DNA of 64,000 nucleotides from Macrocystis pyrifera (lineage: Eukaryota > Sar > Phaeophyceae > Laminariales > Laminariaceae): NCBI GenBank assembly GCA_031763025.1, contig JASSKH010000020.1:5115756-5179755 (forward strand), written 5' to 3'. How positions within the stretch are numbered: the stretch's first letter is position 1; each line of letters starts with the position of its first letter. The notes below the pieces were generated by a model. It was not told where the DNA came from and searched no databases. It saw only the letters and a list, made by a program, of their open reading frames with translations. Both the position numbers and the translations under genes were made by a program. Shown here one piece after another: positions 3,721 to 60,489 of this stretch.

Positions 3721-3912
3721 GCGTTCCTTCTTTCTTTCCCTCCTTTCGTCTTTCAATTGTTTCGTCCCTTCCTTCCTTTCGTCCTTTCTCCTGTAATTTC
3801 CTTCGTCCTTTCCTTCCTTCCATCTTTTGGTCCGTCCTCCCCCCCTTCTTTGTTTTTTCCTCGCTTCGTTCCTTGCCTCCTTCCTTGTTTCCTTCCTTCT
3901 TTCACATCCCGA
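3721..3912 (+). repeat. Pyrimidine tract (CCTT/CTTT)n upstream of the Cys-rich gene
   Basis: About 190 bases are almost pure C and T, made of imperfect CCTTC and CTTTC units, and end some 60 bases before the ATG at 3970. Such tracts can form triplex DNA or act as initiator-rich promoter sequence. A promoter role here is inference from position only. The reverse strand reads as long Lys/Arg/Glu-rich frames, which are artefacts of the repeat. Confidence 0.75.
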
Positions 3913-3969
3913 ACTTGTCCTTGAATCTTGCCCATCGAAGGCAATTGTCAATATATCAATCGTTACGAC

Positions 3970-4989
3970 ATGGGTGCTGTAAAGGCTATTCTGATTGCGA
4001 TAGCCCTCTTGCCGATCACGGGAACGTTGGGCGACTTGCCGGACTACCCAATGAGCCGCAAACAGATGGAGGTCCGCGCCGGCTACTACACGGAAGACGG
4101 CAAGTACCGGGGGGGGCTCCCACATCACATCGAAAATAAGAAGTCCTACGAGTGCACGGCGTTTAACTCAGACAACGTTGGCAGTGGTACGTCGGTCAAC
4201 ACCACGGACGGGAACGCGACCGTTTGCATGACATGGACAGCGAATATGCCCGGTTCGGAAGTATGCGACGGGGGCAACTGCTCGTGTCAGTCCGTCGCGA
4301 GCGCCGGGTACTGCGACGAGTGGACCTGTACCCAACGTGACGTGACTACCGCGACGTGTAACTGCGAGGCAGCAGATGCCGACGCACAAACCTTCTGCTC
4401 ATCCTGGGCGTGCCTTGAGAATGGTTCCGACGGCGGCCAAGGGATGGGTGAATACCAGTGCCTGACTGCATTGTCCGGCCCTCAGTTTTGTGAGGCGTGG
4501 ACGGGCGTGTATGAGGGATCGAAGAAGGTGGAGGATTCGACCTGTGCGTGCGCCGAAGACTTGGAAGGTATCGGCGTTTGTTCATCCTGGGATTGCCAGG
4601 AGCGGCATTTAGCGATATGTTCCCGTGGCGGGGGAAGCTGGTGCAATATTCGCGTGTCCATAGGTGTGGGCTGTTTCTTCGGCTCTTTCGGCGCACTGCT
4701 TATTGCCTTTGGGTTCAACTACGAGCAAGAATACATTGCAGACTGCTCTTTGTGGTCATACTGTATGACCGGGTTTATCTGGATGGTGGGCTGGTTCGGT
4801 GGCGTTGTCGTATGGGGAGGGCATGATGGAGCGGTGTGTGCGGGAATCGTGTGGGGCGCGATAGTGGCGTTTGGATTGCTCTATCGCTGCCTGTGTAACT
4901 ATCGCCACCGCGACACGAAACGTCTCGCTTTATATCGTGGTCAAGCATCACGACACCGTGCTCAACAAGATACATCAGTACCAAGCTAA
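3970..4989 (+). CDS. Secreted/membrane protein with five CxxW modules and three membrane segments (paralogue 1)
   Basis: A 339-residue protein of no family I recognise. Residues 1-22 are hydrophobic and look like a signal peptide. The luminal or extracellular part (about 25-225) has five tandem modules of 28-31 residues, each starting [FYV]-Cys-x2-Trp (Cys86, 115, 143, 174, 204), most closed by Cys-x-Cys. Three hydrophobic spans follow (about 227-249, 264-283, 287-309), then a short basic tail. Asn-x-Thr/Ser sites lie at about 77, 82 and 151. I chose the ATG at 3970 because the paralogue at 59530 starts at the same MGA and both are in an ACATGGG/TCATGGG context; the in-frame TTG at 3928 is not conserved. 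Disulfide-rich modules with a membrane anchor suggest a cell-surface or wall-facing role, which is inference. No introns are seen. Confidence 0.85.
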   Translation: MGAVKAILIAIALLPITGTLGDLPDYPMSRKQMEVRAGYYTEDGKYRGGLPHHIENKKSYECTAFNSDNVGSGTSVNTTDGNATVCMTWTANMPGSEVCDGGNCSCQSVASAGYCDEWTCTQRDVTTATCNCEAADADAQTFCSSWACLENGSDGGQGMGEYQCLTALSGPQFCEAWTGVYEGSKKVEDSTCACAEDLEGIGVCSSWDCQERHLAICSRGGGSWCNIRVSIGVGCFFGSFGALLIAFGFNYEQEYIADCSLWSYCMTGFIWMVGWFGGVVVWGGHDGAVCAGIVWGAIVAFGLLYRCLCNYRHRDTKRLALYRGQASRHRAQQDTSVPS

Positions 4990-5155
4990 TGTTCATGTCG
5001 ACAACGGTATTTATTACCCCCGTTCATGTACGAAGGAGGGTAACATAGCTAGGAAATTGTGTTGTCTCTGTCTATTTCTTGAATATGCCTGGTTCCCACC
5101 TGGGTGGGCGATGCATTACAGATAATATACACTAGAGACGCACGCGAGCCAAGGT

Positions 5156-5261
5156 GGGGGGGGGGGGGGGGGGGGGTACTCATTTGTTGCTTGCCTTATT
5201 CATTTGACCAATGACCACGCATCCCTTTCGAGACGGAGCGGGGGGGGGGGGGGGGGGGGGG
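5156..5261. repeat. Two long poly-G runs
   Basis: Runs of 21 G (5156-5176) and 22 G (5240-5261) flank about 60 bases of ordinary sequence. The exact lengths are unreliable in any assembly. Similar runs occur at 60810 and 60866. Confidence 0.9.
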
Positions 5262-5349
5262 CACGGAAACCTTTCAATGCTACTACTAGGTTAACAGCGG
5301 TTATACGAAGGTCTTTATTTATCATTTGTCTACCATAGTCAATCATTTG

Positions 5350-5856
5350 CTACTGGAGCCGAACACTCAATTCCCATAGGCTACGTTGGGAACAAATCGA
5401 AGAAAATCTTTTGGTGGGCCCAAACATATTACGGGCAGCCCCCAAGCCCGTAATATCCTTTTTCCCGACACGGCGGCGCAGTATCTCCTTCGGAGCATGG
5501 GCCAGTGGCATGGTGGCTTCAGGTACAACCTCCACCTGTATTTTGCGTGGAAGAACGATGGAGATGACCTTAAAACGCATGCAACTCGTCCAGCCCTCGT
5601 AGGGGGTGCCGTACCACGTCCAGTCTAGCGAGGTCTCGCTAAACACCAATAACGCCGTATCATGATCGTGCACTTGATCAGGCGGTGGATAAAGTGGCTC
5701 GTCGGGCACGGTCGCTTTACAATTCAGGTGTGTGAGAGATCGTGCGGACACTCTGGTGCAAGGGACTTGCTCAAGTGTGCATTTGTTGTAGGGATACATA
5801 ATCTCCCAACAAACGGGGTCGATGATTTGCTTCAGACGCCAAATTGTACAATATAC
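5350..5856 (-). CDS. Candidate exon of an unrecognised protein
   Basis: The minus strand is open from about 5856 to a TAG at 5350. An ATG at 5799 gives 149 residues, but 19 further in-frame codons upstream also look protein-like (rich in Trp, Cys, Ile). That stretch begins just after a CTGAG that could be an intron acceptor, so this may be the last exon of a spliced gene. Composition is balanced, with Trp-rich stretches (for example LDWTWYGTPYEGW) and no simple repeats. I do not recognise the family, and no other exon was found. Confidence 0.4.
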   Translation of the reverse strand, partial: VYCTIWRLKQIIDPVCWEIMYPYNKCTLEQVPCTRVSARSLTHLNCKATVPDEPLYPPPDQVHDHDTALLVFSETSLDWTWYGTPYEGWTSCMRFKVISIVLPRKIQVEVVPEATMPLAHAPKEILRRRVGKKDITGLGAARNMFGPTKRFSSICSQRSLWELSVRLQ

Positions 5857-8130
5857 TCAGACATGAGTATCGTGATTAGCGTGGTATATATATGTGTGAA
5901 TGGGTTATCTTGTTTTCATGTTGTGTGAACCCCACCGGGAAGAATCAAACAGAGTAGGGACCCCAAGACAGCGGCGGCGAGCCGAATGCCGTGCGCCGGA
6001 TAAGTGAGACGCGGATCATGACTATTGAGGTTTTTTGGGAGGGGAGGGGGGGAGTCCAGGAGGAGCAGGAAGAAGACGAGGGCGAGAATGACGAGGAGAG
6101 AGGAAGAGGGGGGTTTGAAGCGGAGTGGCTGGCGTCTGACAGGATGTCCGACCATCACCCCACCAAGAGCTCTTCATCAATGAAAACATTGGTTTCTCGA
6201 GCGTTGTGCTCCGTTTGGCCATCACACTGTCAGGCTCCAACAGTCGTACTGCAGGTGCTGTGACTCACAACACACTGCACTTCATCACCGCAACGCTGAT
6301 GTACTTGTATTACTTTCACCTGGGACATTTTCCTGAACACTGAATACATTTAGGCATCAACGAACAAGAGGGAACGCCCGTCATGGCCCATCCAAACAAA
6401 TGTTGTGTCCTACTGCGGTAGTCTCGATTGGGCGTTTAATCGTTGACAATGTACTAACACTTGATGTTGTGGTTTAGTCCAAGCTCAAAGGGCAACTACG
6501 AGGTTGTCTACTCTAGATGTACATTAGGTCTCAGGCTGGTCGTATAAAGACGCACTGTAACGGCATGTGTTGCTCGATGCCGTTTCTCCGCCAGACACCG
6601 AGCGCAGGGTAGTAATTTGATCCGGCGCATTTTCCGTCTGTTTGCAGGCTTTGGGAGTACATACCTTGTCCACGCCTTTCATCGATTAGTTACGGCGCAA
6701 CAGAGCAGTAGAGGGGGAAACATATATATGGTAGATACAGAACAGCACGTGTTAATGCACCGTACAAGGTGCCGGTTAATCACGCCTACTTCGCAGGTAC
6801 AAAGTAGTCATACCGTATACAATTATGTTATTAACCATTTGATAATCGAACACATATCCGAGGAAAAGCCGCGATCGTCTCGATACTGCTGTTTCCACAA
6901 ACTATTGAACAAACGCGAAAAAAACGATTGTTCGCCTGGCTTCCGAAGAAGTACACATACGACACCGCATGTGATAACAATCACTGGTGACTCAAGAGCA
7001 CCAAATTGTACGGATTGAGGCTGGGGTCAGCGACATTTACTCGTACTTTTAGAGGTCCCGTACATTATACAGCCTGGTTCAAGACTGCCACACAAACATT
7101 GTTTAATAGGCAATGCCAACAACGATGTTCGGGGATAATGTTTGAAAATTGTGACACCACTTTTATGAACCCCTGCCAACCTGTTACCGGTTGGTTTGTT
7201 GTTCTCTTGGTTGCGCCAGATATATGGTGCTTCGTATTTTTGAAGACACTTGTGTAAGTGTCTCAAGAGATCCCATATTTTCGGCGAAATGCAAACCAGA
7301 CAAGAACCACGAAAACATATTCACGGGTTGGATGGGACTGGTAGACCACGGGTGACACATTTGAAGGGGCCCCTCGCCAAAACAGGAACTGAACTCTCAG
7401 AACTTACTGTTTAAATAGAACGAATAGGTTTTTCCTCGTTCTCACTCAGATCAGTAATGGTATATATTGTACACAGTCGTATTTAGTATGAATACGGTGA
7501 CACGTTGAACAAATATGCATTGGAGTAACTGCAATCGGTTTGTTTAGAAACCAACTGCGGGGTAAAGGTTAGTGTACTCGACATCATATATAGCCATAGT
7601 CGTATAACCATAGATCTTCAAATCGCCCAAAGGTCGGGGATAAGCACGTCGAGTTTGTAATAACGAGGCAGATATTGCTCACACCAAGCGCGACGTACCG
7701 TGGGGTGCTCGGCTAGTCGAATGAAGGGTGAGTGGCATCCTGCAAGAAATCGCATGTGAGGCGGACTCGCATAGGAAAGACAGCTCCATCGAGGGGAAAC
7801 AGTTTTCAAGGTAGTCACGTGTAGAGACAGCAATGTGGGTACCTGTAACTGCATCTAGGGTGCCTCGTCATATACACTAGGTGCTACGATAGTCCCCTTT
7901 CTCCAGAGTTAAGGTTGTCCGTCCAGCACAAAATGACCTATCACGATCGCCAACTATTTTCGACCGAAAACAAACGACACAAAACCACGGTGTCCTGATG
8001 GTCCAACTTACGCAGTGAGGGGCATAATTTCCAGCCTACTTGCCAACCGCCGCCCCGCAACCTTTATAAAACATACCGAGGGGGGCGGGGAAATTCGTTC
8101 GAATCCTCCTGCCTAGTATTGACCTATCGA
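5857..8130. other. No gene recognised
   Basis: There is a GA-rich tract at about 6030-6115. Otherwise only short open frames without protein-like features or similarity to the rest of the window. Confidence 0.5.
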
Positions 8131-37807: not shown

Positions 37808-39320
37808 TCACAGAGGATCAGCGCAAGAAAAAAATAGAAAATACAAAACAAAACATAACCAAAACAAAAACAAAAGGAAGACAAAGGAAGACCACGTTCC
37901 AACCAGCTGCACCAGTTGGTGGCACGAGTAGTATGAGCATGCTCTACTTTCTATCCGCCCGGTATCTTGCCACCCTGTCTGCCATCTCCTTCCTACTTTC
38001 GTCCACTGCAGTTTCCGTTCTGCTCTTGTTCCCCCCCCTCTCCACATTCCCTTGGTCGGGTTTTCTGCAACTCCTCCTGTTGCCCCCGCCCTCCCCCCGT
38101 TCCCTTGGACACCACCCACGGCGGATGCGCGGCGCTGCCTGCTCAGCTCAGCCTCAGCCTCGTGCCACCTCACCATTGTGAACCGTAGGGCTGCTTGGAG
38201 GCTCCCCCAGTACCACTTCCCCGCTTTTTTTGCAGCAGTGAACGACAGCACGGTCTCAACTCCAAACACCATGGGGGCAGGTTTCGTTGACCCTTCGATG
38301 GCTCCGAACTCCCTAAGGTCTTCGACTATGCATCTATGCCAAGCCTTAAACTGTCCGCCAGGTCCCGGGTTCTTCCCATCAGCCATCGTCCTGAACATTA
38401 CCCGACTGGGTAATCGCTCCTTGCTTTGCCGTGCCACCTCCCTCGCAAAGGAGAGCCGCCAATTGCGAATGGTCGTTTCGACGCTCTCGCAACGTGTCAT
38501 CTTGAGGGCCGCGTACGAGAGGGTGATATGGGCAGTACGAAGTCGGCGCTTCCGTTCGAAGCTTGGCAAAGTGTTCCGCTCAGAGAGCGTAGCATTCAGA
38601 CTTTCAGGCTAAGGGTGATATGGGCAGTACGAAGTCGGCGCTGGAAGTCAATGGCTCGCAACAGGACTTGGTGGTGAGCCGTTCGAAGCTTGGCAAAGTG
38701 TTCCGCTCAGAGAGTCTACGCCACACACCCGTACAGCAGGGCCTCAATCACCTCGGCCTTCAGCATTCAGACTTTCAGGCTAAGGGGAGCGGTTGTCCTA
38801 TCATACAGCTCCGGGCCGACCCGTTGGAGGCATGCTCGTTAATTTCGAGCGAGAGGTCAGCATTTTCGTGGATAATGCCGCCTAGGTATATGAACTGGGC
38901 CGTCTGCTTATACCTCTGGCCTGCTGCTTCGATGACGTGCGGTGGTGCGAGGGTTTTCTGGTCTGGTGTTCGTAGAAGCATTTGTCTCTGTCTTCTTTTC
39001 CGACACCGTGAGGCCTGCTGCTTCGAAGACAGTCGCGATGACTGTCATCAGTTTCGCGAGCCCTTCAGCCGACTTCGAGACAATCCCTGCGTCATCGGCG
39101 TAAAACATGCCCCAAACAGCCCTTGGCACGCACGCCAACGGTTCCTGCTCCTCCGTTCCAACTACTCCAGCATCACTGAGTTGGACCAAATCCTTTTCGA
39201 TGGCTTCGTCTCGGCTGAACGTACTAGTACGACGTATAACGCAGCAGCGAAGAATACGTTGAACAGTAACGGTGATAGCACACAGCCTTGCCGCAGCCCC
39301 TGCGCGACATAGAATCATCC
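37808..39320 (-). pseudogene. RT C-terminal half of LINE copy A
   Basis: Three frames match the second half of LINE B's protein in order: [22 protein letters not shown] (38908-39318), [18 protein letters not shown] (38775-38981) and a C-terminal frame of 253 codons (37808-38569) with ETTIRNWRLSFA and [17 protein letters not shown]. Frame breaks and a duplicated segment at 38520-38730 show it is non-functional. Confidence 0.85.
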
Positions 39321-40330
39321 CGAGTGCTCGCCGTCATCCGTGCGCACGCGAGCCCGCATGCCATCGTGAAAATTACGGATAATTCACAGGATCTTGGTTG
39401 GTACGCCAAAGCGTGTGAGTACCTCCCATAACAGCTCTCGGTCGACAGAGTGGTACGCTTTCTGCAGATCGATGAAGCACAAGAACAGGGGTTTTTCCTT
39501 TGTCGTCCAAACTCTTGCAACCGGCGCACGACGAACGACATATCAATCGTTGATCGTGCGGGGCGGAAGCCGCACTGTTCCCCCGGGAGTAATTCCTCGG
39601 TCTCGCAGTAGTTGCTGAAGCGGGACGCGACGATTTTTAACAAAACGTTGCCTGCGTGGGCAACAAGCCAATCCCTCCGTACTTGTTGCAATCAGTTCGG
39701 TCCTTCTTTTTGTGAAGGACCTTGATGATCGCATTTTTCCATTGCTGAAGGACTTCTCCTGTTACCCAAACATTGACAAGGATGTTGTGAAACTACTGGG
39801 CGAATGCGAGGTGGTGGTCGATGTTCTGGAGTTCGGCCGGGAGACCATCTGGCCCCACAGCTTTCCTAATTGACATCCCCTTAAGTGCATCGTAATCTCG
39901 TCCATGGATGGTTCATCTCCGAGCGACAGCTTAAGCGGTCGTGGTGGCAAGAGGTCGGTGATCGTGGATTTCGTGTTCAAGAGTCTGTGGTAAACCTCCC
40001 CCCCATCGTTCACGAATTCGCATCATATCCCGCAACAGCGTGCCATCCTCGTCCCCAATGAACTGTTCGCTCCTCGCTTTAGTCTCTTCCAATCCTACCG
40101 TACTCTTAGGTGCTTGTAAAAGTCTCCCTAGTCGTTGTTCTCTAGGAGTCGTTCGGTCTTAGCGAGGTACGCTTAGAAATACGCATGCAGTCCTGCGGCA
40201 ATAACCTTCTGCAGGTTCGCACACGCAGATCTCAGTGTCTTCCACGCGGTTCCATCCCGGGGGTGAGCACGCAAGAATTGTCATGCATGCTCCCTCGCTG
40301 TCCATGCTAATATGAAAGATTTCGGCAGAC
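39321..40330 (-). pseudogene. RT N-terminal half of LINE copy A
   Basis: The minus strand carries broken pieces matching LINE B: YHRLLNTKSTITDLLPPRPL (39762-40013), then [20 protein letters not shown] and [12 protein letters not shown] (39224-39691). The sequence near 40200-40250 matches the start of LINE B (CTGCAGGTTCGCACACGCAG). Several indels break the frame. Confidence 0.8.
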
Positions 40331-40950
40331 TCACATCATCCAAGTCTGCGGCCCCCGGCGGCGACGTGCAGGGGGTGGTACCGCTTTTTCGATCGCATCA
40401 ATAATAGCCGCAGTGAAAAACTCAACCATTCCAGACGGATAACGGAACTGGATAAGCTGGTTGAGATCGGAGATAACCCTCGCGACTACTCGTTCACGAC
40501 ACTTTTCATCGGACATAAAATCTGCCTGTCGAACTCTCGGCGTTTTGTCGGCCTACGTATTTGTCTGTTGGGCGCAAAGTGACCACTGAGTCGGACTTTG
40601 ATACACAATATGTTGTGGTCTGAGTCAGCCTTAGCTGGGGCAGAAAGCTGTGGGAAGACTTTAACACCTTGTACTCTAGGTCGGTGGGCTTGGCGGGTTA
40701 GGATGTAGTGGATCCGCTCGCGGTCATTCGGGCTGGTGCCATTGTGTTTGCGAAATCCCACTCTTGCACGTGCTGAAAAACGTGTTGGTGAGAGCTAACT
40801 TGCAATTGGTGGCGAACGGCAAGAGTCGTTCGCCATTATCGTTACGAATATCACGTACATATGCTCCAAGCACTCTACTTTTATCATCACCGCACGCTTC
40901 CGTCCTCCAGTGGCCACCTGTGCACTCAACCCTCGCAGAAATTAGTGAAA
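40331..40950 (-). pseudogene. Endonuclease C-terminal part of LINE copy A
   Basis: Minus-strand text covers the end of an exonuclease-endonuclease-phosphatase domain: ARVECTGGHW (where the GDxNARV catalytic motif is expected; the Asp-x-Asn part is lost), DKSRVLGAYVRD, NTFFST, a frame break, NDRERIHYILTRQ, and SDHNIL. A linker (40331-40516) leads to the RT. The LTR element begins at the upstream end of this segment. Confidence 0.75.
40947..40950. repeat. Target-site duplication GAAA, left
   Basis: GAAA directly before the 5' LTR is repeated directly after the 3' LTR at 47065-47068. A 4-bp duplication is within the range for LTR retrotransposon integrases. Confidence 0.8.
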
Positions 40951-41406
40951 TGTTATGGTTTTAGACCGTTTCAGGAGTTACGACGACTTGCGTTTTTGTA
41001 TCAGCAGGGGACGCGTCATTTACGGCCCCTCCCCCATTTGTGGATTGCCACTCTTTCTCTCTCCTCTTCGGCGGGTCCTACGTGTTGCCTCGGTCATCGC
41101 TCTCGACCGGAGGCTCAAAGCAATCAGTTTACCATCTACATACCTGGGAGACCTTCTCCCTAGCGTCAGAAGCACGCTATACCCCTCTGGGACACGTGCG
41201 AGCCCACGTCTCGACTCGGTTGGATCGTGGCCAGACTTGAGGTTGGTCTTATTATTTGTATATTTTAGGCATGTGTTGTAATCCTGTTCTATCCTGTATC
41301 TGAAGCGGACTGTCGACGGCTGATTTTTTAAAATAGGCTCATGCCCGTGCTGCTTGCCTCATCCTGACCCAAGACCTCATGACCTATACGCTCCCGATCC
41401 ATATCA
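40951..41406 (+). repeat. 5' LTR
   Basis: 456 bp, TGTTATGG...CCATATCA. It has a TATA-like TTTGTATATTTTAGG at about 41256-41270, which could set the transcription start. It differs from the 3' LTR only by one G in a GGCGGGTCC/GGCGGTCC stretch. Confidence 0.93.
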
Positions 41407-41424
41407 TGGTGTCCAATCCGAGAC
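41407..41424 (+). other. Primer-binding site
   Basis: TGGTGTCCAATCCGAGAC starts directly after the LTR's terminal CA. Its complement ends in GACACCA, as expected for a tRNA 3' end. A tRNA-Leu-like acceptor (GTC...GACA) would fit, but the tRNA cannot be fixed without the genome's own tRNA set. Confidence 0.7.
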
Positions 41425-42780
41425 ACGCGCTTGCACGCACTGGGGATCGTTCTACGCATCCCACTCTGTTTTGTTTTTTTTATTTGTGCGGGACCCTGAG
41501 ATCTCTGTGGGTTTTATGCACACGAGGATACGTACAGCAGCAATACGTATAGCATGCGATACTTGCTGCTGTGCTGCTGTACTACAGCAGTATTAAAATA
41601 GCAGTCCTGCTGTTTTGTTTTTTATTTTTTTCGTTTTGCCTCGAATGTTTTCGCTTTGTTTTTCGGGGGAGGCAACGGACACACTCAGGAGCATATAATG
41701 CCCTGGCGTGTGTCTTATCTCTTGGTTCTAACGGCTACCCTATCCAGTTCTGTTTGCCCCTTTGCACTTTGAGGCTTTGTTGGGATGGCACAGGTGGGAG
41801 TCCAAAGCTTGCAGCACACTCGTTAGGGCCCCACCCTTTTCTTTCCACCGGCAGCGATAAAAATGAATGAAAAGCAAAAGCCCGAACGTGATGTGACCTG
41901 TGGTTTGTGCGGCCCCGAGTGTGCTCGCTTTAGTGACTCCCGGGCCGGGTATCCACTTGCCATCTGTCTGTCTGCGCGTCTGCTGCTGTCGCCGTACGCC
42001 ACTCGTCGCTATCGCGACGCGTGGCTCTGCATTGCTGCGAACGCGGCACTTGCTCCACTTTCTCTGCTGTGGGCACTACCCACAAGTGCCTGCAGCAGGA
42101 TTCACGGGGAGATACCTCTTGGTCTAAATGTACGATTATTTTTACAGAGTAGTTACTCTGTACCAGGTATGCATATATTTATGTTGTGCGAGCTACTATT
42201 AATACTAGTGCTGTAGATCGAGGTCAGGTCTCGAAATGTTGGTTGGTTGCGTTCGACGTGAACATAGTATCAAAGATCCAGCTCGTACGACGTATCTTTT
42301 GGGTCGAGTTGTGACGTATCAATACGACAGAAAAATGACTACGATATCAAGATCCTACAGATATCTGGCTTTCCAGTGGTAAAAGTGACAAGTAGGAGCG
42401 ACCTACTTCGTCAAAGTTGTTGTCGTTGTTCTCACATTTAATTCATCGCCATAATAAAAAACAATGCAGTTCGTGGTCGCAGGACATGAGAATACCTGGG
42501 ACCTCGGTAAGGCACTTGTTAATTATTACTCAAGTATACAGCAGAATAGACCCACCAATAAGAACCTGATGGAAACAAGAAGCTCACTGTTTCAAGGACG
42601 CCAAGAAATTGCATCGAGATGATGCGCTCCGCGGAAGTTACGTCTTCTTCAATAAATAGTATTATACCCGGTACCTGGTACGTGTTATTTGTCGCTGTTG
42701 GTCCTGTTTGTTTTATTATGTATTTCCTCTTGTTTTCGCGCTATACCTTTATGCCCTCATCTGCCATGGTGTCAGTAAGG
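41425..42780 (+). other. LARD interior, leader region
   Basis: No convincing frame. A segment at about 41976-42050 (CTGCTGTCGCCGTACGCCACTCGTCG...CGCGACGCGTG) recurs at 44145-44212 with a different central loop. CACTCGTCG and CGACGCGTG can pair with one mismatch, so it is a repeated hairpin. Confidence 0.6.
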
Positions 42781-42784
42781 AGAG

Positions 42785-43380
42785 ATAGGCCAGTGCCTCG
42801 TGGAAAGCGAATGGTTTCGTCAACTAAGCTTACACGGGGTCTGCGCCTATCCTACCTATCTGGCATGCGTTTTGTGTTTATTGGAGATGGGTCTGTGCCT
42901 TGTGGGGACATAATTATGGTCTTGAACCGAGCCTCCACAAGGTCTGTGCCTGTCCGCCTTGCACCTGTTGTTGAGATGGGTCTGTGCCTTGTGGGGACAT
43001 GGCTATGGTCTTGAACCGAGCCTCCACAGGGTCTGTGCCTGTCCTACCTGTACCTTTATAATATTTTACGTCTGCGCCTATCCTACCTATCTGGCATGCG
43101 TTTTGTTTTTATTGGAGATGGGTCTGTGCCTTGTGGGGACATAGTTATGGTCTTGAACCGAGCCTCCACAAGGTCTGTGCCTGTTCTCCTTGCACCTGTT
43201 GTTGAGATGGGTCTGTGCCTTGTGGGGACATGGCTATGGTCTTGAACCGAGCCTCCACAGGGTCTGTGCCTGTCCTACCTATACCTGTTTATTATTGTAT
43301 AGGAGAGATAGGTCTGTGCCTCGTGGAAGTGGTGCCGTGTCTTTACCCGTCGCGGGAGACAGAAACGAACTTCCACGAGG
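42785..43380 (+). repeat. Array of six hairpin units with GGTCTGYGCC motif
   Basis: Six units lie at 42785-42850, 42898-42942, 42987-43031, 43129-43173, 43218-43262 and 43319-43380. In each, a left arm after GTCTGTGCC pairs with a right arm preceding GTCTGYGCC. The arms are CCTTGTGG/CCACAAGG in units 2 and 4, CCTTGTGG/CCACAGGG in units 3 and 5, CCTCGTGGAAGT/ACTTCCACGAGG in unit 6, and CCTCGTG/CACGGGG in unit 1. Unit 6 also has nested GTCT/AGAC and CCCG/CGGG stems. Units 3 and 5 and units 2 and 4 are near-copies, so part of the array arose by a ~231-bp duplication (42889 versus 43120). Confidence 0.85.
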
Positions 43381-43639
43381 TCTGCGCCTGTCCTACTTAC
43401 ACGGTCTGTTAGTATGCTCTCTACAATTATACTTCTTTTATTCAGGACAAAAATATTTTCCCTTTTTATTTGTAATTTTTAGGTGCACCTATCCATTTCG
43501 TGTGCCCGAAGACGGAGAATAAATAATTCTCTCTATTTCCAGTACGAAATAATTAAATTGAAATTGGGGTCAATTTAGTTTTATGCATTTCCCACCTGGA
43601 TTATAATTACTTGTCGATTCGTGTTTACATTGTTGGTGT

Positions 43640-43770
43640 GTTATGCTGCTCTGCTGCTGGTTGCACTGATTTCCGCGTGTATCGGTGCTGATATTCGCGC
43701 TTATCTCGTTATGCGGCTCTGCTGCTGGTTGCACTATTTTGCCCGCTTTCATCGGTACTGACATTTTCAT
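43640..43770 (+). repeat. Tandem duplication of about 65 bp in the LARD interior
   Basis: TATGCNGCTCTGCTGCTGGT followed by TGCACT and ATCGGTRCTGA occurs twice, near 43642 and 43710. Diverged units, no coding frame. Confidence 0.7.
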
Positions 43771-43909
43771 CGTTTTTATGTTCCGTCATCGCAACATGTT
43801 TCTGCAATGACGGGCGAGCGGGAGTGGCGGCCGCATGCATTAATAATTTTCCTGATTCATCTTGTGGGTGCACGCATATTGTATGGTTTGTCTCAGCTTG
43901 GGAGGACCG

Positions 43910-43946
43910 TTGTTGCTGTCTCCATTAGGCAGAGAGATAGCAACAA
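43910..43946 (+). other. Hairpin TTGTTGCTGTCTC/GAGATAGCAACAA
   Basis: A 13-base left arm at 43910-43922 pairs with 43934-43946, with one G-U wobble and an 11-base loop. It is flanked by the same GGACCG...AAGGTCTCTGG arrangement as the hairpins at 44337, so it is the same structural family with a different stem. Confidence 0.75.
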
Positions 43947-44294
43947 GGTCTCTGGAATACTGAAACGTTCGGCTAATGTACCCCGCCGCTTCCAGCATGC
44001 TGTGCGGGCAGCTAAAGATGAGCACTCTCGTATTACCGCGTATATTAATGTGCTTACCAGCTGTTAATTTGCCGACGTTCCCGTGTTCCACTGTTCGCGT
44101 TCTTTGTCTTATCTTGACATTCGCTTGCCATGCCTGTCTTCATCTCCGCTGCTGTCGCCGTACGCCACTCGTCGATGGCGCGACGCGTGACTCTGCGTCG
44201 CTGCGAACGCGTCATCTCTTGTTTTATGCTCTGTGTTTGTTTTTTTTCGTTTGTGTGTCTGTTTGACTATTTGTCCATTCCTCGGATAGAGAGT

Positions 44295-44616
44295 GGATGT
44301 CCAGAGTGGTTGGGGTCTGCGCCTATTGGGACCGTTGTTGCTGCCTCCCATGCTGAAGGGAGACGGCAACCAGGCCCCTCTAGGTCTGTGCCTTAGCCAC
44401 GGGGCTTTTACCTGTTTGTCGTTTAGTTTTGTGTCGTTCGTCCGTTTGTTTCTTTGGATGTCCAGAGTGGTTGGGGTCTGCGCCTATTGGGACCGTTGTT
44501 GCTGCCTCCCATGCTGAAGGGAGACGGCAACCAGGCCCCTCTAGGTCTGTGCCTTAGCCACGGGGCTTTTACCTGTTTGTCGTTTAGTTTTATGTCGTTC
44601 GTCCGTTTGTTTCTTT
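44295..44616 (+). repeat. 161-bp tandem duplication carrying a hairpin
   Basis: Two almost identical units start at 44295 and 44456 (GGATGTCCAGAGTGGTTGGG). Each holds a hairpin: GGGG, GCCT and GTTGCTGCCTCCC pair in order with GGGAGACGGCAAC, AGGC and CCCC, bounded by GGTCTGCGCC and GGTCTGTGCC as in the array at 42785. The stem has one G-U and one mismatch. Confidence 0.88.
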
Positions 44617-45239
44617 GCTCCTCTGTTTGTTCTTGTTTGTTCTATTCGCTTTTATTGTTTGTTTGGTCGTTTGTTTTGCTTGTGTATTTGTTTTTTGCGA
44701 ACCCGCTTGCCCGTGCATCCGCTCGCACTGACTGTGACCTTTACTGACACCCGCACTCCGTCGCATGTGTCCCGCAGTTTGATGCCGTCCCGTGTGCGCT
44801 GTGCGTGCGTGTCCATCGTGGTTATTTTAGTTCCTTATCACTACGTTCTTTTCTGTTCATTTTTTGGCGGGTGAAGGACGCATCAAGGAAACTATTGCCC
44901 TGACATGTGTGTTATAGCCTGGACCTGACTGTTAGGCTCGCCAGTTGCCTGGACCTGACTCTCAGGTTCTCCAGTTCTCTTTGTTTCTCCCGTTCGCGTC
45001 TTTTTTTTTTTTTTTTTTTCGTTTCCACTCTCGTTGACGGGGGGAGGGCGCCGCGTTCGTCGGAAGCCTGCAACGGCATGAAGTCACCGAGATCAACCAA
45101 GTGGCTCAAATATCACCAACCCGATATCCTTCACGCGAAGGCACCGGAACGATACCCATCTGGGTCAGCCTTGCCCCTGTTTCCGTTAGGCAGTAGGTGT
45201 CGCTCTATGAAAATACTTTAATGGCGATCTCAGACGGCA

Positions 45240-46080
45240 GAATCAGGTGTACGATTGCAGAGACCGCTACTGGCGAATACGCTACAGCAACCAGAACTGG
45301 GAGGAGCTGACCAGCCGCGAGATGGAGCAGTTGAAGAGCGGAAGCGATTATCGAGCGTCAAGCGCAGTGGACCGCTTCCTCGCTTCCCATGCGCCGTTTC
45401 CTTTCTGTCTCGCTTGCCGGTATACCGTTCCCTCGCTTTTCCGCGCGTTGTTCCCTCTATACTCGGCGTACGCTATTGCCTCGCTTTCCCGTGTACCGCT
45501 CCCTTGCACCGATGTCTTGTCCGTGCGCCACTCCCTCACTTCGACGCCGTGCGTTGTCTCGCCCCGGAATCTTGCCCGTCCGCCGCTCGCTGCGCCGCTC
45601 CCTCGCTCCGGCACCTTGCGTTCCCTCGCTCCGGTATCTCGTCCGTCCATCGCTCGCTTGCGCCCGTGCGCTGCTTTCTTGCCCCGATGCCTTGATCGTA
45701 CGAGGTACTGCCCAACGGCCAGAATTGGAAGGAATTGACCAGCCGCTATACGGAGCGGTCGAAGACCTAAAGCGATACTGTGCGTTCGCCGAGGAGGCGA
45801 AGACCTTCGACTTCTGCCCTTCGTTGTTTTGTGTTTTTGTATGAAACGGTGGGGGTCCTGCCCGCAACAGCTGGTCGTTTTGGCGTGAAACTGTTAGGTA
45901 TAGACTTGTGGGGTGTTGGATGTACGTTGTGACTTCGTGAATGTTTGTGTGTTTGGGTTGGGAACAGGCGTATTCTTCCGTGAATGGTGGGGTTACAATT
46001 TCGTAGTTAAGTGATATGAGGAGCAGTTCCAGATCGGCAGCGATAATGAGCGTTCGCCGAGGACGCAAAAATCTCTGGTG
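45240..46080 (+). repeat. Degenerate minisatellite and duplicated coding-like fragment
   Basis: 45370-45690 is an imperfect minisatellite of CGCTCCCTCGCTCCG-like units, which keeps all frames open. It is bracketed by two related fragments: one at 45260-45350 reads NQNWEELTSREMEQLKSGSD, the other near 45715-45760 reads NGQNWKELTSRYTERSKT. This may be a last trace of a gag-like frame, or captured sequence. I cannot assign it. Confidence 0.5.
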
Positions 46081-46601
46081 GTTCTGTTGTTCGAGGCTAC
46101 GTGTTTTTGTGAGAGATTGAGAGGTACCTGCTTGTTACAGCCAGTCGGTCTGGCGTGGATTAGTTGGGTATTTTTTTGTATGGGGGTTTGCTCTTCCGTG
46201 CCGGGTAGTGGGCTAACTTGTTTTGACGATTCGGCTTCCTCGTATGTTTTCATCCGATTTGGGGAACTCAAATCCCATGGGTATTGACTTTTGACCCGTT
46301 CAGAGAACGCAGAGATGGCGGTTTAAGCTTAGGCGTTAGTGTACTGCGCTTATTCACTGTTGAAGAAGTGTGGTAGGATGACTATAAACCATTGATTATT
46401 GGTCAGGCAGTCAAACTCGCAGTGAAAAGGCGGGGGTGGTGAGGGTTTTTATCGGGGATTTCCCTCTGATGGCCCCTGCGTTTTCTGTTTGTTTTCGCCT
46501 ATCCCCGAGATCATTATTTTTGTATAGAGCCTTGCGGTTCCTTACCCTTGGTTATAGTCAAAGATTGCTATAGCATATTGCTCAGTTATTCGCATTATGC
46601 T

Positions 46602-46609
46602 AGGGGGGA
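46602..46609 (+). other. Polypurine tract
   Basis: AGGGGGGA immediately before the TG of the 3' LTR, the expected site of plus-strand priming. Confidence 0.85.
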
Positions 46610-47064
46610 TGTTATGGTTTTAGACCGTTTCAGGAGTTACGACGACTTGCGTTTTTGTATCAGCAGGGGACGCGTCATTTACGGCCCCTCCCCCATTTGT
46701 GGATTGCCACTCTTTCTCTCTCCTCTTCGGCGGTCCTACGTGTTGCCTCGGTCATCGCTCTCGACCGGAGGCTCAAAGCAATCAGTTTACCATCTACATA
46801 CCTGGGAGACCTTCTCCCTAGCGTCAGAAGCACGCTATACCCCTCTGGGACACGTGCGAGCCCACGTCTCGACTCGGTTGGATCGTGGCCAGACTTGAGG
46901 TTGGTCTTATTATTTGTATATTTTAGGCATGTGTTGTAATCCTGTTCTATCCTGTATCTGAAGCGGACTGTCGACGGCTGATTTTTTAAAATAGGCTCAT
47001 GCCCGTGCTGCTTGCCTCATCCTGACCCAAGACCTCATGACCTATACGCTCCCGATCCATATCA
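46610..47064 (+). repeat. 3' LTR
   Basis: 455 bp, identical to 40951-41406 except for one missing G. Followed at 47065-47068 by GAAA, the right copy of the target duplication. Confidence 0.93.
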
Positions 47065-47068
47065 GAAA

Positions 47069-49633: not shown

Positions 49634-52486
49634 CAGTAGTGTGTGTGTGTGTGTGTTTCTTCACATTAAACCGTTCTTCTACTCGTCGACATCCAGCAAG
49701 CCCAGTGTCCGTGCTGATTCTTCACCCTAGAAAGATACGAGCTCTGTGGTCACAGACTACGACACAGAGATAACACACCGTAATGCATTAATAGCCTACG
49801 CAATACCATGCCTTCGCACTAGGTGCGGCCGACACAACATACATACATACGCCACCAACCAAAATACACCATAAAGAAAGAGAAGCAACGAAAAAACCAA
49901 ACCGAAAAAGAACAAGAAAAGAAAAAGAAAAGGAGAAGAATCCCAAATAAATAAATAAAAAATGGGAAGCCAAAGCTCAGACACATACATACTTACCCCG
50001 AGCATGAGCCAAAAGGGACGTGCAAGGGGAAAGATACAAGAAGGAAAAAGGGGACTATGCATCCCGGTGAACACTTAACTAAGTAAAAAGAGCGATAGTG
50101 AGTGGGCCAACATACGCTCGTCACCCACCCACTATGTAGTACTTCTTTCATAAGGATAAGAAGGGAAAAAATCAAAATGCATACCGAACGGCCGCAGCAG
50201 TTGGCGGTACGAGTAGCAAAGAAAAGTCCAACCTATTAGTCGGCCTGGTACCTTGCTACCCTATCTGCGGTCTCTCTGCTACTCTCTTCTACCGCGGTTT
50301 CCCTTCTACTCCTCCTGTTCCCCCCCCTGCCCCTATACACTTGTACGGTGTTCCCTCTACCCCTCCTGCTGTTACCCCTCCCCCCATTCCCTCTAACACT
50401 ACCTGCAGCGGATGCACGGCGCTGTCTACTCAGCTTTGCCTCAGCCTCGTGCCACCTGCCCATGAACTGTTCAGCTGCTTCGAGGATTCCCCGGTACCAC
50501 TTTCCCGTCTGTTTTGCTGCAGTGGGCCACAGTGCGGTCCCAACTCCAAAGACTAAGGGGGAGTCTTCCGTTGATCCCTCTGAGGCTTTGAACACTCTAA
50601 GGTCCTCAGCAATTGCCCTAGGCCAAGTCTTAGGCTGCCCGCCTGGTTTCGGGCTCCCCCCACCAGCGATCGTCCCGAACATCAACCGACTGGGCAATCG
50701 CCCCTCGTGTTGCCGCACCACAGCCCCCGCAAAGAAGAGTCGCCGTTTACGGATGGTCGTTTCGATACTTTCGCATCGTGTTATCCTGAGCGCCTTCGCA
50801 TACGAGAGGGTGGTGTGGTCGGTGCGTAGTCGGCGCTGGAAACCAATGACTCGCAGAAGGACTTCGTGGTGGGCTGATCGAAGCTTGGCGAAGTGGTCCG
50901 CATTGAGGGTCCACGTCACGCAACCGTACAGCAAGGTCTCAATCACCTCGGCCTTCAGCATCCGGACTTTCAGACTAAGCGGTGCGTTCGTCCTATCGTA
51001 CAGTTCCGGACCATACCGTTTGAGGCATGCCCGCATCAGACGGATTCGTCGCTCGATTTCGAAGGAGAGGTCAGCGTTCTCGTGGATAATGCCTCCTAGG
51101 TACAAAAACTGGGTCGTCTGTTTATACTTTTGGCCTGCAGCTTCGATCGCGAGCGGTGAGGTGGTAAACGTCTGATCCGGTGTTCGTAGGAGCATCGTCT
51201 CTGTCTTCTTCTCGGATACCGTGAGACCTACTGCTTCGAAGACAGTCACGATGACTGTCATCATTCTCGCAAGGCCTTCCGCCGACTTCGAGACTATTCC
51301 TGCATCGTCTGCATACAACATGCCCCACACAGCCCTTTGCACGCATGCCAACGGTTCCTCTTTTCCGACAACCCTGTCCTCTTCGAGATGAACCAAATCC
51401 CTTACGATGCATTCGTCTTTGCTGAAGCGTACCAGCACGATGTGTATCGCAGCGGCGAAGAACACGTTGAACAGTAACGGCGATAGTACGCAGCCTTGCC
51501 GCAGTCCCTGGGTTACATTGAACCAGTCCGAGTGTTCACCGTCATCCGCACGCACGCGAGCCCGCATGCCTTCGTGAAAATTGCGAATGATTGTGAGCAT
51601 CTTGGTTGGTACACCAAGGCGTGTGAGTACCTCCCACAACAGTTCTCGGTCGACAGAGTCGTACGCTTTCTGCAAGTCGATAAAGCACATGTACAGGGGG
51701 ATTTTCTTCTGCCGCCCGAGCTGCTGCAACCGGCGCACGACAAACAGCATATCGACTGTTGACCGTGCGGGGCGGAAGCCACACTGTTCTTCAGGGAGTA
51801 TATGCTCGGTCTCGCAGTAGCTGCTTAGACGGGACGCAACGATTTTCAGCAACACCTTGCCTGCGTGAGCAACAAGCGAAATACCTCTGTAGTTGTTGCA
51901 ATCAGTTCTATCCTTCTTTTTATGAAGGGTTTTTATGATCGCATCTTTCCATTGCTGGGGGACTTCTCCAGTTACCCAAACGTTAACAAGGATACTGTGA
52001 AAATACTGCACGAAAGCGGGGTGGTCAAGTTTCAGTACTTCGACCGGGAGACCATCTGGTCCAACGGCTTTCCAGTTTGACATACCCTTCACTGCTTCCA
52101 TCATCTCGTCAATGGATGGTTCATTTCCAAGGGATAGTTTCAGCGGTCGTGGTGGCACTAGGTCGATGATCGTGGGGTCAAGTTTCAGCGATTTCGTGTT
52201 CAATAGTTTGTGGTAGTGCCCCGCCCATCTTTCACGAATTCGCGCTTGATCTCGCAACAGCGTGCCATCCTCGTCCATGATAAACTGTTCACTCCTCGCT
52301 TTCGTACCTTGCAACCCTACCGTACTCTTCAGGTGCTTGTAGAACCCTCGTTGATCGGAACTCGTGAGGAATTTCTCGGTTTCAGCGAGGTACTCTTCAA
52401 AATACGCATTGACTCCTGCGGCGACCACTTCCTGCAGATTCGCACAGGCGGATCTCAACTTCTTCCACGCTGTACTATCTCGGGGG
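49634..52486 (-). mobile_element. LINE copy B, 5'-truncated non-LTR retrotransposon
   Basis: Minus-strand element. Its 3' end shows a (CA)n tail (TG run at 49639-49656 on plus) and the 3' sequence shared with LINE A. Coding text starts abruptly at about 52486 ([18 protein letters not shown]) without an ATG or endonuclease, the classic 5' truncation. TAGTAGA at 49627-49633 and 52487-52493 could be the target duplication; seven bases could match by chance. It is less decayed than LINE A. Confidence 0.85.
50236..52486 (-). CDS. LINE reverse transcriptase (5'-truncated, no ATG)
   Basis: The frame is open over about 750 codons. Counting from a TTG codon at 52458, the protein has 740 residues. RT motifs in order: GPDGLP (133-138), [11 protein letters not shown] (226-236), [13 protein letters not shown] with the first catalytic Asp (259-271), [11 protein letters not shown] (317-327), [13 protein letters not shown] with the catalytic Asp pair (378-390; YADD codons at 51304-51315), then [17 protein letters not shown] and the thumb region. 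The C-terminus is basic ([21 protein letters not shown]) and may bind nucleic acid. It lacks the APE endonuclease seen in LINE A, so it cannot be a full protein. In an intact copy the protein would drive target-primed reverse transcription in the nucleus. Confidence 0.93.
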
Positions 52487-52689
52487 TAGTAGAAAAGTCA
52501 GGTATACCTTGGCGTTTTCGATATAAAATCAGTTACGATGTCAGCCTGGCCAATAGCAGGGCTCCTGGCATGTATTTTGTGCTTGGTTTTAGCTTGTAAC
52601 TGATTTTGGCCGAAAATTGGCCAGGTATGTCTGATTTTGGCTGAAACGCTACCAATAGGTTATTCTACGTACAACGGTATGTATGCACT

Positions 52690-59330: not shown

Positions 59331-59529
59331 AGAACGCGTCCGCGGCGCACAATTAAAGTTGGCGAAAGCTGTCGCGCGACGTCCACATTTTGCATATATG
59401 TCTCGTCAATGCTGGTAGGTCCAAACAACTGGCATGTTTTAAAGCCCACTCTCGCTTCGCTTCGCTGCCCGGTCGTTTCTCCCTTGCTGGCTCCTAATCT
59501 AGGCGAAGTTAGTATCTCGACCGTTCGTC

Positions 59530-60489
59530 ATGGGTGCGAAAAAGGCCGGACTGGTCGTTGTTGGGGCCCTCCTGCCGATCACAGGAACCTTGAGCGTACT
59601 GCCCGACTTTCCACTGAGCAGCAGAGAGATAGAGATCCGTGCCCGCTACTATACGGAGAACGGTAAGTACAGGGGAGGTATTCCGAGATTCGAAAACGCC
59701 TTGCAGCTCTACGAATGCACTGAGGTCTACTCGGACAGCACCATTGCTACTACCGACGGCAATGCTACTACTACTACTACCGACGGCGGGGAAGGAAACG
59801 CAACGGTGTGCATGGCCTGGACAGCGAACGCGAGCGGCCCGGAAGTGTACGAGATCGGGAAGTGCTCCTGCCAAGCCGTCGCGGACAACTCCGAGTACTG
59901 TGAGGCGTGGACCTGCAGCCAGGTGGGCGTAGAGAGCACGCGTTGCACCTGCAAGACGGAGGACGACGATTCGGGAAAATTCTGCTCGTCCTGGACGTGC
60001 GTAGAGACCGACTCCGACGGGACCCAAGAATTCGGGGAGTACCAGTGTGTCATCGCGTCAAGTTCAATTCCCTCTGAGTTTTGTGCGGCATGGACGGGGG
60101 TAGTCGAGGGGTCGGGAGAAGCGGAGGTTGCGGCCTGCGAGTGTGTCGAGCAGTGGGACGGCGCCGGTGTTTGCTCGTACTGGGAGTGCAAGGAACGGGG
60201 TTTGCGCAAGTGCTCTCACGTCGACAAGAGTTGGTGCAACATAGGCGTTTCCATAGGGGTGGGCGGCTTCTTCGGTTCGCTGGGGGCGATGCTGGTGGGT
60301 TATACTTTGTTCGCCATGGCCTACGAGAATGTGAATTGGATAGTGAGTATTCTTGGTGGGTTCATTTGGATGGCGGCTTGGTCGGCCGGTGTTGTCGTGT
60401 GGGGCGGCCAAGATGGAGCCGTGTTTGCAGGCGTATGGTGGTGCTTAGTAATAGCGCTGGGCGTGATTTGCCGCGGTATCTGTACGTAA
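59530..60489 (+). CDS. Secreted/membrane protein with five CxxW modules and three membrane segments (paralogue 2)
   Basis: 319 residues, homologous over its full length to the protein at 3970. Signal peptide at about 1-21 (LLPITGTL is shared), then a conserved RARYYTENGKYRGG-IP region (RAGYYTEDGKYRGGLP in the paralogue). The five modules are all kept, with Cys-x2-Trp at Cys94, 124, 152, 185 and 215. Three hydrophobic spans (about 238-262, 269-291, 296-316) follow, with GVVVWGG-DGAV identical except for one residue. Differences: a Thr-rich insertion at 74-90 with TTDGNAT partly duplicated, and a shorter C-terminus without the basic tail. The preceding 80 bases are CT-leaning. Conservation of all five modules despite divergence elsewhere argues that both genes are functional. 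Confidence 0.88.
   Translation: MGAKKAGLVVVGALLPITGTLSVLPDFPLSSREIEIRARYYTENGKYRGGIPRFENALQLYECTEVYSDSTIATTDGNATTTTTDGGEGNATVCMAWTANASGPEVYEIGKCSCQAVADNSEYCEAWTCSQVGVESTRCTCKTEDDDSGKFCSSWTCVETDSDGTQEFGEYQCVIASSSIPSEFCAAWTGVVEGSGEAEVAACECVEQWDGAGVCSYWECKERGLRKCSHVDKSWCNIGVSIGVGGFFGSLGAMLVGYTLFAMAYENVNWIVSILGGFIWMAAWSAGVVVWGGQDGAVFAGVWWCLVIALGVICRGICT

Follow-up and report, generated by a model that had tools for sequence, protein, structure and literature searches.

A tandem array of predicted RNA hairpins in a gene-less LTR element of Macrocystis pyrifera and in its Ty3/Gypsy relative

The stretch of Macrocystis pyrifera DNA analysed here (64,000 nt in all, hereafter the window) carries an LTR element at 40951-47064, flanked by the target duplication GAAA/GAAA at 40947-40950 and 47065-47068. 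The features of the element are collected in the table below. When the two LTRs were aligned, 456 of 457 positions matched with one gap, a count that includes one base before the LTR. Seven of the 63 ORFs of at least 60 aa, the four longest among them, were scanned, and the 5.2-kb interior gave no Pfam match above the cut-off with these. An earlier note on this DNA had described a gene-less LTR element, and this was borne out by the LTR pair, the primer binding site (PBS), the polypurine tract and the lack of a Pfam-recognised gene in those seven ORFs. The sole coding trace found in the element was a 43-aa remnant of a pol C-terminus, which matches the end of the pol ORF in a coding copy on another contig, C49, at 79% identity (E 2e-21, single comparison). 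The remnant is itself partly duplicated (45291-45348 against 45719-45776, 79% over 58 nt), beside tandem C-rich repeats. A GC-rich 84-nt module, hairpin-forming by eye, was seen once upstream of each of the two groups of hairpins described below (41965-42048 and 44131-44214, 85% identical).

Elsewhere in the window, a reverse-transcriptase ORF of 753 aa lies at 50236-52497 on the minus strand (RVT_1, E 5.9e-35) and was read as LINE-like; blocks 81-87% identical to its region are present at 38612-40107. Two plus-strand ORFs, at 3925-4989 and 59503-60489, look related, cysteine-rich and membrane-like by eye, and had no Pfam match. The segments at ~21.9-25.7 kb and ~61.1-63.8 kb form an extended inverted duplication, split into many blocks that are 75-89% complementary.

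Table. Features of the LTR element and its hairpin units, in window coordinates
Feature	Position	Strand	Basis
5' LTR (TG...CA)	40951..41406	+	aligned to 46610-47064; ends read directly
Primer binding site (PBS) TGGTGTCCAATCCGAGACACGCGC	41407..41430	+	adjoins 5' LTR
Unit 1, type A stem, divergent 5' motif GGCCAGTGCC (42788)	42780..42855	+	fold; covariance model, 78.5 bits (unit in model)
Unit 2, type B stem CCUUGUGG/CCACAAGG	42882..42958	+	fold, column comparison, covariance model
Unit 3, type B, U-G at stem pair 3	42971..43047	+	fold, column comparison, covariance model
Unit 4, 231-bp duplicate of unit 2	43113..43189	+	self-comparison, fold, covariance model
Unit 5, 231-bp duplicate of unit 3	43202..43278	+	self-comparison, fold, covariance model
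Unit 6, type A stem CCUCGUGGAAG/CUUCCACGAGG	43303..43396	+	fold, column comparison, covariance model
Hairpin x, v-type apical stem sequence, without intact motif pair	43904..43950	+	20-nt family common to v; fold
Unit v1, same motif pair, other stem sequences	44306..44400	+	28 bits, E 1.1e-5; fold
Unit v2, 161-bp duplicate of v1	44467..44561	+	self-comparison, covariance model
Pol C-terminus remnant (Tudor-like tail)	45211..45339	+	43-aa match to C49 pol end
Polypurine tract AGGGGGGA	46602..46609	+	sequence; just ahead of 3' LTR
3' LTR	46610..47064	+	aligned to 5' LTR; ends read

The motif GGTCTGYGCC was found as an exact match 15 times in the window, with 0.33 expected, and none of 100 shuffles of the window reached this number. 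All 15 matches are on the plus strand, between 42838 and 44553, and thus inside the LTR element; the motif differs from its reverse complement. The hairpin units that contain it form an array 1.4-3.2 kb from the 5' LTR. When folded, each of units 1-6 gave a single hairpin; the fold energies of the units are -27 to -54 kcal/mol. In units 2-6 an outer helix is followed by GGU/GCC pairs around a CUGY/CUGY 4x4 internal loop and then by an inner helix, such that GGUCUGYGCC is present in both arms and stands antiparallel, opposite itself. The pairing of unit 1 is slightly shifted, alongside its divergent 5' motif. The outer helix (GATRGG/CCTRTC in the window) lengthens the stem past the motif, while the apical parts differ between units and unit types. 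Units v1 and v2 have the arrangement of the u-type units with different stem sequences. A covariance model was built from seven u-type units, v1 and v2 not being among them; as it found these two (E 1.1e-5), the u and v units are related. In a stability scan with segments of 110 nt, the only sense-strand outlier was unit 6 (z -5.5, among the best 45 of 2324 segments). Rfam gave no match at the gathering threshold, and none at E up to 1 for 42700-44650.

The hairpins and the stems quoted in the earlier note do exist. Its six units are all real, and two more of the same design, v1 and v2, had been missed; the motif boundaries that it gave to units 1-6 are exact in 11 of 12 cases, the 5' boundary of unit 1 being divergent. 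The stems had been said to change in step, and they do so by a double change at stem pair 4 (columns 22/77), which is U-A in units 2-5 and C-G in units 1 and 6. The 'G-U intermediate' did not hold up. The U-G of units 3 and 5, seen also in unit 1, lies at stem pair 3 (columns 21/78) and hence is not an intermediate of the change at pair 4. A further double change, absent from the earlier note, was found at columns 28/71. A partial origin by duplication was confirmed, units 4-5 being a 231-bp copy of units 2-3 at 96% identity, and the window on its own is consequently weak evidence. Within it, two pairs are changed on both sides, for which 172 of 500 shuffles were as high, and the covariation score was reached by 1 of 500 shuffles.

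The genome (537,376,219 bases in 223 contigs) was searched for further copies. The array search gave 41 matches, 40 at 98-100% identity and one at 87% (40 of 154 candidates scored). The motif-pair pattern had 807 genome matches, some of them spanning neighbouring units, and the backwards control had none. Stems missing from most copies would have spoken against a maintained fold; the array was present in all 40 of the 5' LTR-leader copies (the best-scoring 40 of 541 candidates). In 34 of these the array match shares the LTR's strand and begins 1.8-2.2 kb from the LTR start. The other six were read in sequence, and each of them has the array in the same orientation as the LTR, with between 7 and 13 exact motifs. 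Unit number varies by copy, the 231-bp duplication being present or absent and the v unit count differing. The most diverged copy read, L238, is about 93-96% identical along the element and has one extra u unit. The base after the motif was other than T in 11 genome matches, namely eight inter-unit spacers and three hairpins in which that pair is lost, so the following U is nearly fixed.

Two of the copies (L294 and L295, on C204 and C206) have an internal deletion that fuses the u array to the v array, as if recombination had used the shared motif; their aligned parts are 97-99.7% identical for full-length pieces. Another subfamily, seen in C7 and C129 copies (L280, L284, L301, L302), has a longer u array, of at least 7 and 9 units, and the motifs of its v-type unit are damaged. 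Downstream, over the 5.0 and 3.6 kb read, this subfamily looks gene-less, the longest ORFs being of 247 and 246 aa. Perhaps the u and v unit types can replace each other.

A coding relative is present on the minus strand of C9 (L288). Its LTR-PBS region is ~69% identical to that of the window element, and the first 31 nt from the PBS (41407 in the window) are identical. Between its PBS and a gag-like ORF lie five tandem 127-bp units with v-type hairpins (rc 3880-4521, 40.9-45.1 bits); four of the five, units 2-5, have the 5' motif GGTCTGYACC and not the exact motif. The comparison with the leader of a coding partner, proposed in the earlier note, thus did reveal related hairpins. The gag-like ORF (767 aa, rc 4621-6924, with a plausible start methionine at rc 4885) had no Pfam match. 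It contains a CX8CX5CX3H motif, which we take to be a CCCH-type zinc finger. The pol pieces of the C9 element gave no Pfam match above the cut-off, and 14.5 kb of sequence around the element revealed no second LTR. After the gag-like ORF there follow in order, as read in the C49 copy (99.5% identical to the C9 element), a protease-like DTGAG, RVT_1 (6.5e-19), RNase H, Integrase_H2C2, rve and a Tudor-like tail that is below the Pfam cut-off. This pol was read as it stands, as three overlapping ORFs, the upstream one containing RVT_1, the middle one RT_RNaseH, and the downstream one RT_RNaseH, Integrase_H2C2 and rve. The order of RT, RNase H and integrase is that of Ty3/Gypsy elements. Given the same PBS, a related LTR and the pol tail, sequence comparison shows that the gene-less window element descends from this Ty3/Gypsy family.

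We assayed the pairing in a larger set of units with the covariance model. When 18 loci were searched (L281 being replaced by L288, which contains it), 15 yielded 85 matches, of which 68 are distinct and 6 run off the end of a stretch, and L287, L301 and L302, whose v-type units have damaged motifs or pairs, gave none at the threshold, which favours paired units in the sample. In these 85 matches (alignment A6, which, like the smaller A4 used below, was fitted to the model), 95.0% of 1139 cells pair, compared with at most 53.1% for slid partner columns. The covariation score was 0.237, against 0.138 for shuffled columns (reached in 0 of 500) and at most 0.090 for slid ones. Five pairs were changed on both sides, which is not unusual (83 of 500 shuffles), and neither was the number of pair types (133 of 500). 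For the v-type helices alone, covariation was not significant (86 of 500).

As the units are related, a tree was also used to simulate substitutions, each column receiving as many as were observed and the root being fully paired. The rows used were 61 of the 68 distinct rows of A6 and 37 of the 44 distinct rows of A4, incomplete rows being left out. With 61 rows and a null without recombination between units, the observed paired fraction was reached in 0 of 5000 simulations, and the covariation score in 3 of 5000 (all-column tree) or 1 of 5000 (unpaired-column tree). The count of pairs changed on both sides was not unusual (504 and 1295 of 5000). With the 37 rows, run earlier, the counts were 1, 3 and 84 of 5000. 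Compensatory change beyond phylogeny is therefore seen in the paired fraction and in the covariation score, and not in the both-sided count.

A window v unit was also compared with a C9 unit. In a shared fold chosen to suit both units, four pairs vary, three of them on both sides (UG>GC, UA>AU and CG>UA), and none is broken; the minimum-energy fold of v itself has two end pairs that C9 lacks, and the C9 unit's own fold has three pairs that v does not form. Among near-identical copies, recent variants break a stem pair 18 times and keep it 7 times (13 and 7 when a one-base-shift artefact in the v row of L238 is left out), and one of the 'breaks' is a base private to the window. These counts were not taken as evidence, because they use the window's own folds and unpolarised changes and have no neutral expectation.

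Part of this could be produced by a functionless tandem-repeat expansion of a fold-back sequence, the compensated stems arising via template switching, arm conversion or concerted evolution. The 231-bp and 161-bp duplications, the differing number of v units and the fused u and v arrays of two copies all suit such an expansion, as does a tree-aware null that leaves out exchange between units. In young copies, moreover, the rate of change in the array is no lower than around it (12.7 substitutions per kb, against 7.5-13.7 for the rest of the internal sequence, in 18 close copies that exclude L230, the window itself, and the rearranged L244). Arm conversion, however, predicts a reverse-complement 3' motif; instead, in the units analysed, the same 10-mer faces itself time and again, and we infer that a direct repeat within an inverted repeat is not the product of fold-back copying or arm conversion. 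Pairing and covariation exceed the nulls. Cells with G-U number 168 and those with A-C 6 (9 and 4 when distinct pair states outside the motif are counted), which agrees with selection on the sense RNA, with a T-rich strand explaining part of the difference. A functionless expansion is judged unlikely. The maintained fold suggested in the earlier note was upheld by pairing kept across units and subfamilies, in the 85 model matches and against the tree-aware nulls; covariation, which that note expected to vanish over more copies if it was wrong, still exceeds the nulls. We consider it highly probable that the hairpins are a selected RNA structure.

The 10-mer is short, conserved and clustered, and these properties would suit a repeated binding site at the DNA level for a host or element protein. 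This has been suggested for Sireviruses, whose clustered palindromic repeated motifs are compared with transcriptional activators in the part of PMC2829016 available to us. A DNA site, however, leaves the covarying helices on both sides of the motif unexplained, the motif is not a DNA palindrome, and none of its 15 matches is in an LTR. We regard such a site as quite improbable. Lower still in our estimate, and very improbable, is a supply of small RNAs or a silencing decoy; the long stems with their strongly negative fold energies would serve for either, but they are interrupted by the fixed 4x4 loop, and their apical parts differ among unit types.

The strongest rival of a cis-acting signal in the genomic RNA is translation control in the coding ancestor. 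Here the hairpins would act on gag translation in the coding element (through ribosome landing, shunting or the start site), and the gene-less element would have inherited them. Leader hairpins often affect translation, and the C9 units end at ~rc 4521, some 360 nt before the plausible gag methionine at rc 4885. However, the window element has eight units compared with five in the C9 relative, though it is without a recognised gag ORF (seven of 63 ORFs scanned). In addition, the array is kept in 40 of 40 leader copies (best 40 of 541), and u-type stems are paired across subfamilies. Translation control therefore appears somewhat unlikely to us as the main role of the array.

The leader position, the larger number of units in an element without recognised gag and the conserved sense-strand fold fit a cis-acting signal of the genomic RNA, and a role in packaging or dimerisation is the most likely one that we infer for it. 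Our main reading, to which we give a probability of about one half, is that the array is a conserved repeated RNA hairpin module of a Ty3/Gypsy leader with such a role. Through the repeated motif, the genomic RNA would carry a cis-acting signal for predicted Gag binding, packaging or dimerisation. The partner's Gag would recognise the leader module, and gene-less copies could borrow the partner's particles through the hairpin signal. A more specific form of this is offered tentatively, as a possibility that we rather doubt. In it, a dosage-variable Gag-recruitment array, near two-fold-symmetric, would be read by a Gag-like protein with a CCCH finger rather than a CCHC knuckle, and gene-less derivatives would compete for particles through having more modules than the coding element has. 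The interpretation given in the earlier note, taken as a whole, is partly supported. To our knowledge, the way in which a partner's Gag selects the RNA of a gene-less LTR element has been worked out mainly in yeast and retroviruses; a module common to a gene-less element and its coding relative is a defined candidate signal.

In the literature searched, as titles and beginnings of abstracts, we found no retroelement cis signal described for brown algae and no such hairpin arrays in LTR elements, and the word 'hairpin' was absent from the searched parts of PMC12477816. Viral contigs were searched with two patterns. The 16-base pattern gave 72 single matches against 37 for a scrambled control and was treated as background, the two-fold difference notwithstanding; the gapped motif pair gave at least 120 matches, many of them 45 or 60 start to start, which were read as coding repeats. 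Phage DNA gave no match.

Several known systems may be set beside the array. Like LARDs, the window element has near-identical TG...CA LTRs, a PBS, a polypurine tract, a short target duplication and a long interior without recognised genes; unlike LARDs, it carries one conserved hairpin module in an array whose copy number varies. The packaging signal of murine leukaemia virus contains UCUG-UR-UCUG Gag sites (PMC3236853). There too, an LTR element has UCUG repeated next to paired segments of its genomic RNA, but in the array two UCUGs face each other in opposite arms of one hairpin, the distance from the LTR and the sequence context differ, and the likeness may be a coincidence. For Ty1, the accessible part of PMC4974528 places cis signals within 580 nt of the RNA 5' end and describes gene-less mini elements that move with proteins in trans, as is proposed for the window element; the Ty1 signals are near the LTR, whereas the kelp tandem array is 1.4-3.2 kb inside. 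Sireviruses, as far as the available part of PMC2829016 describes them, are similar in having clustered short conserved non-coding motifs in LTR elements. Their motifs are palindromes upstream of the LTR TATA box or near env, whereas the kelp motif is a direct repeat in leader hairpins, and palindromic boxes in the LTR are not a feature of the array. Among these systems, the array would rank as a cis-acting LTR-retrotransposon leader structure, a known kind of structure whose form here, modular, tandem and symmetric, is unusual.
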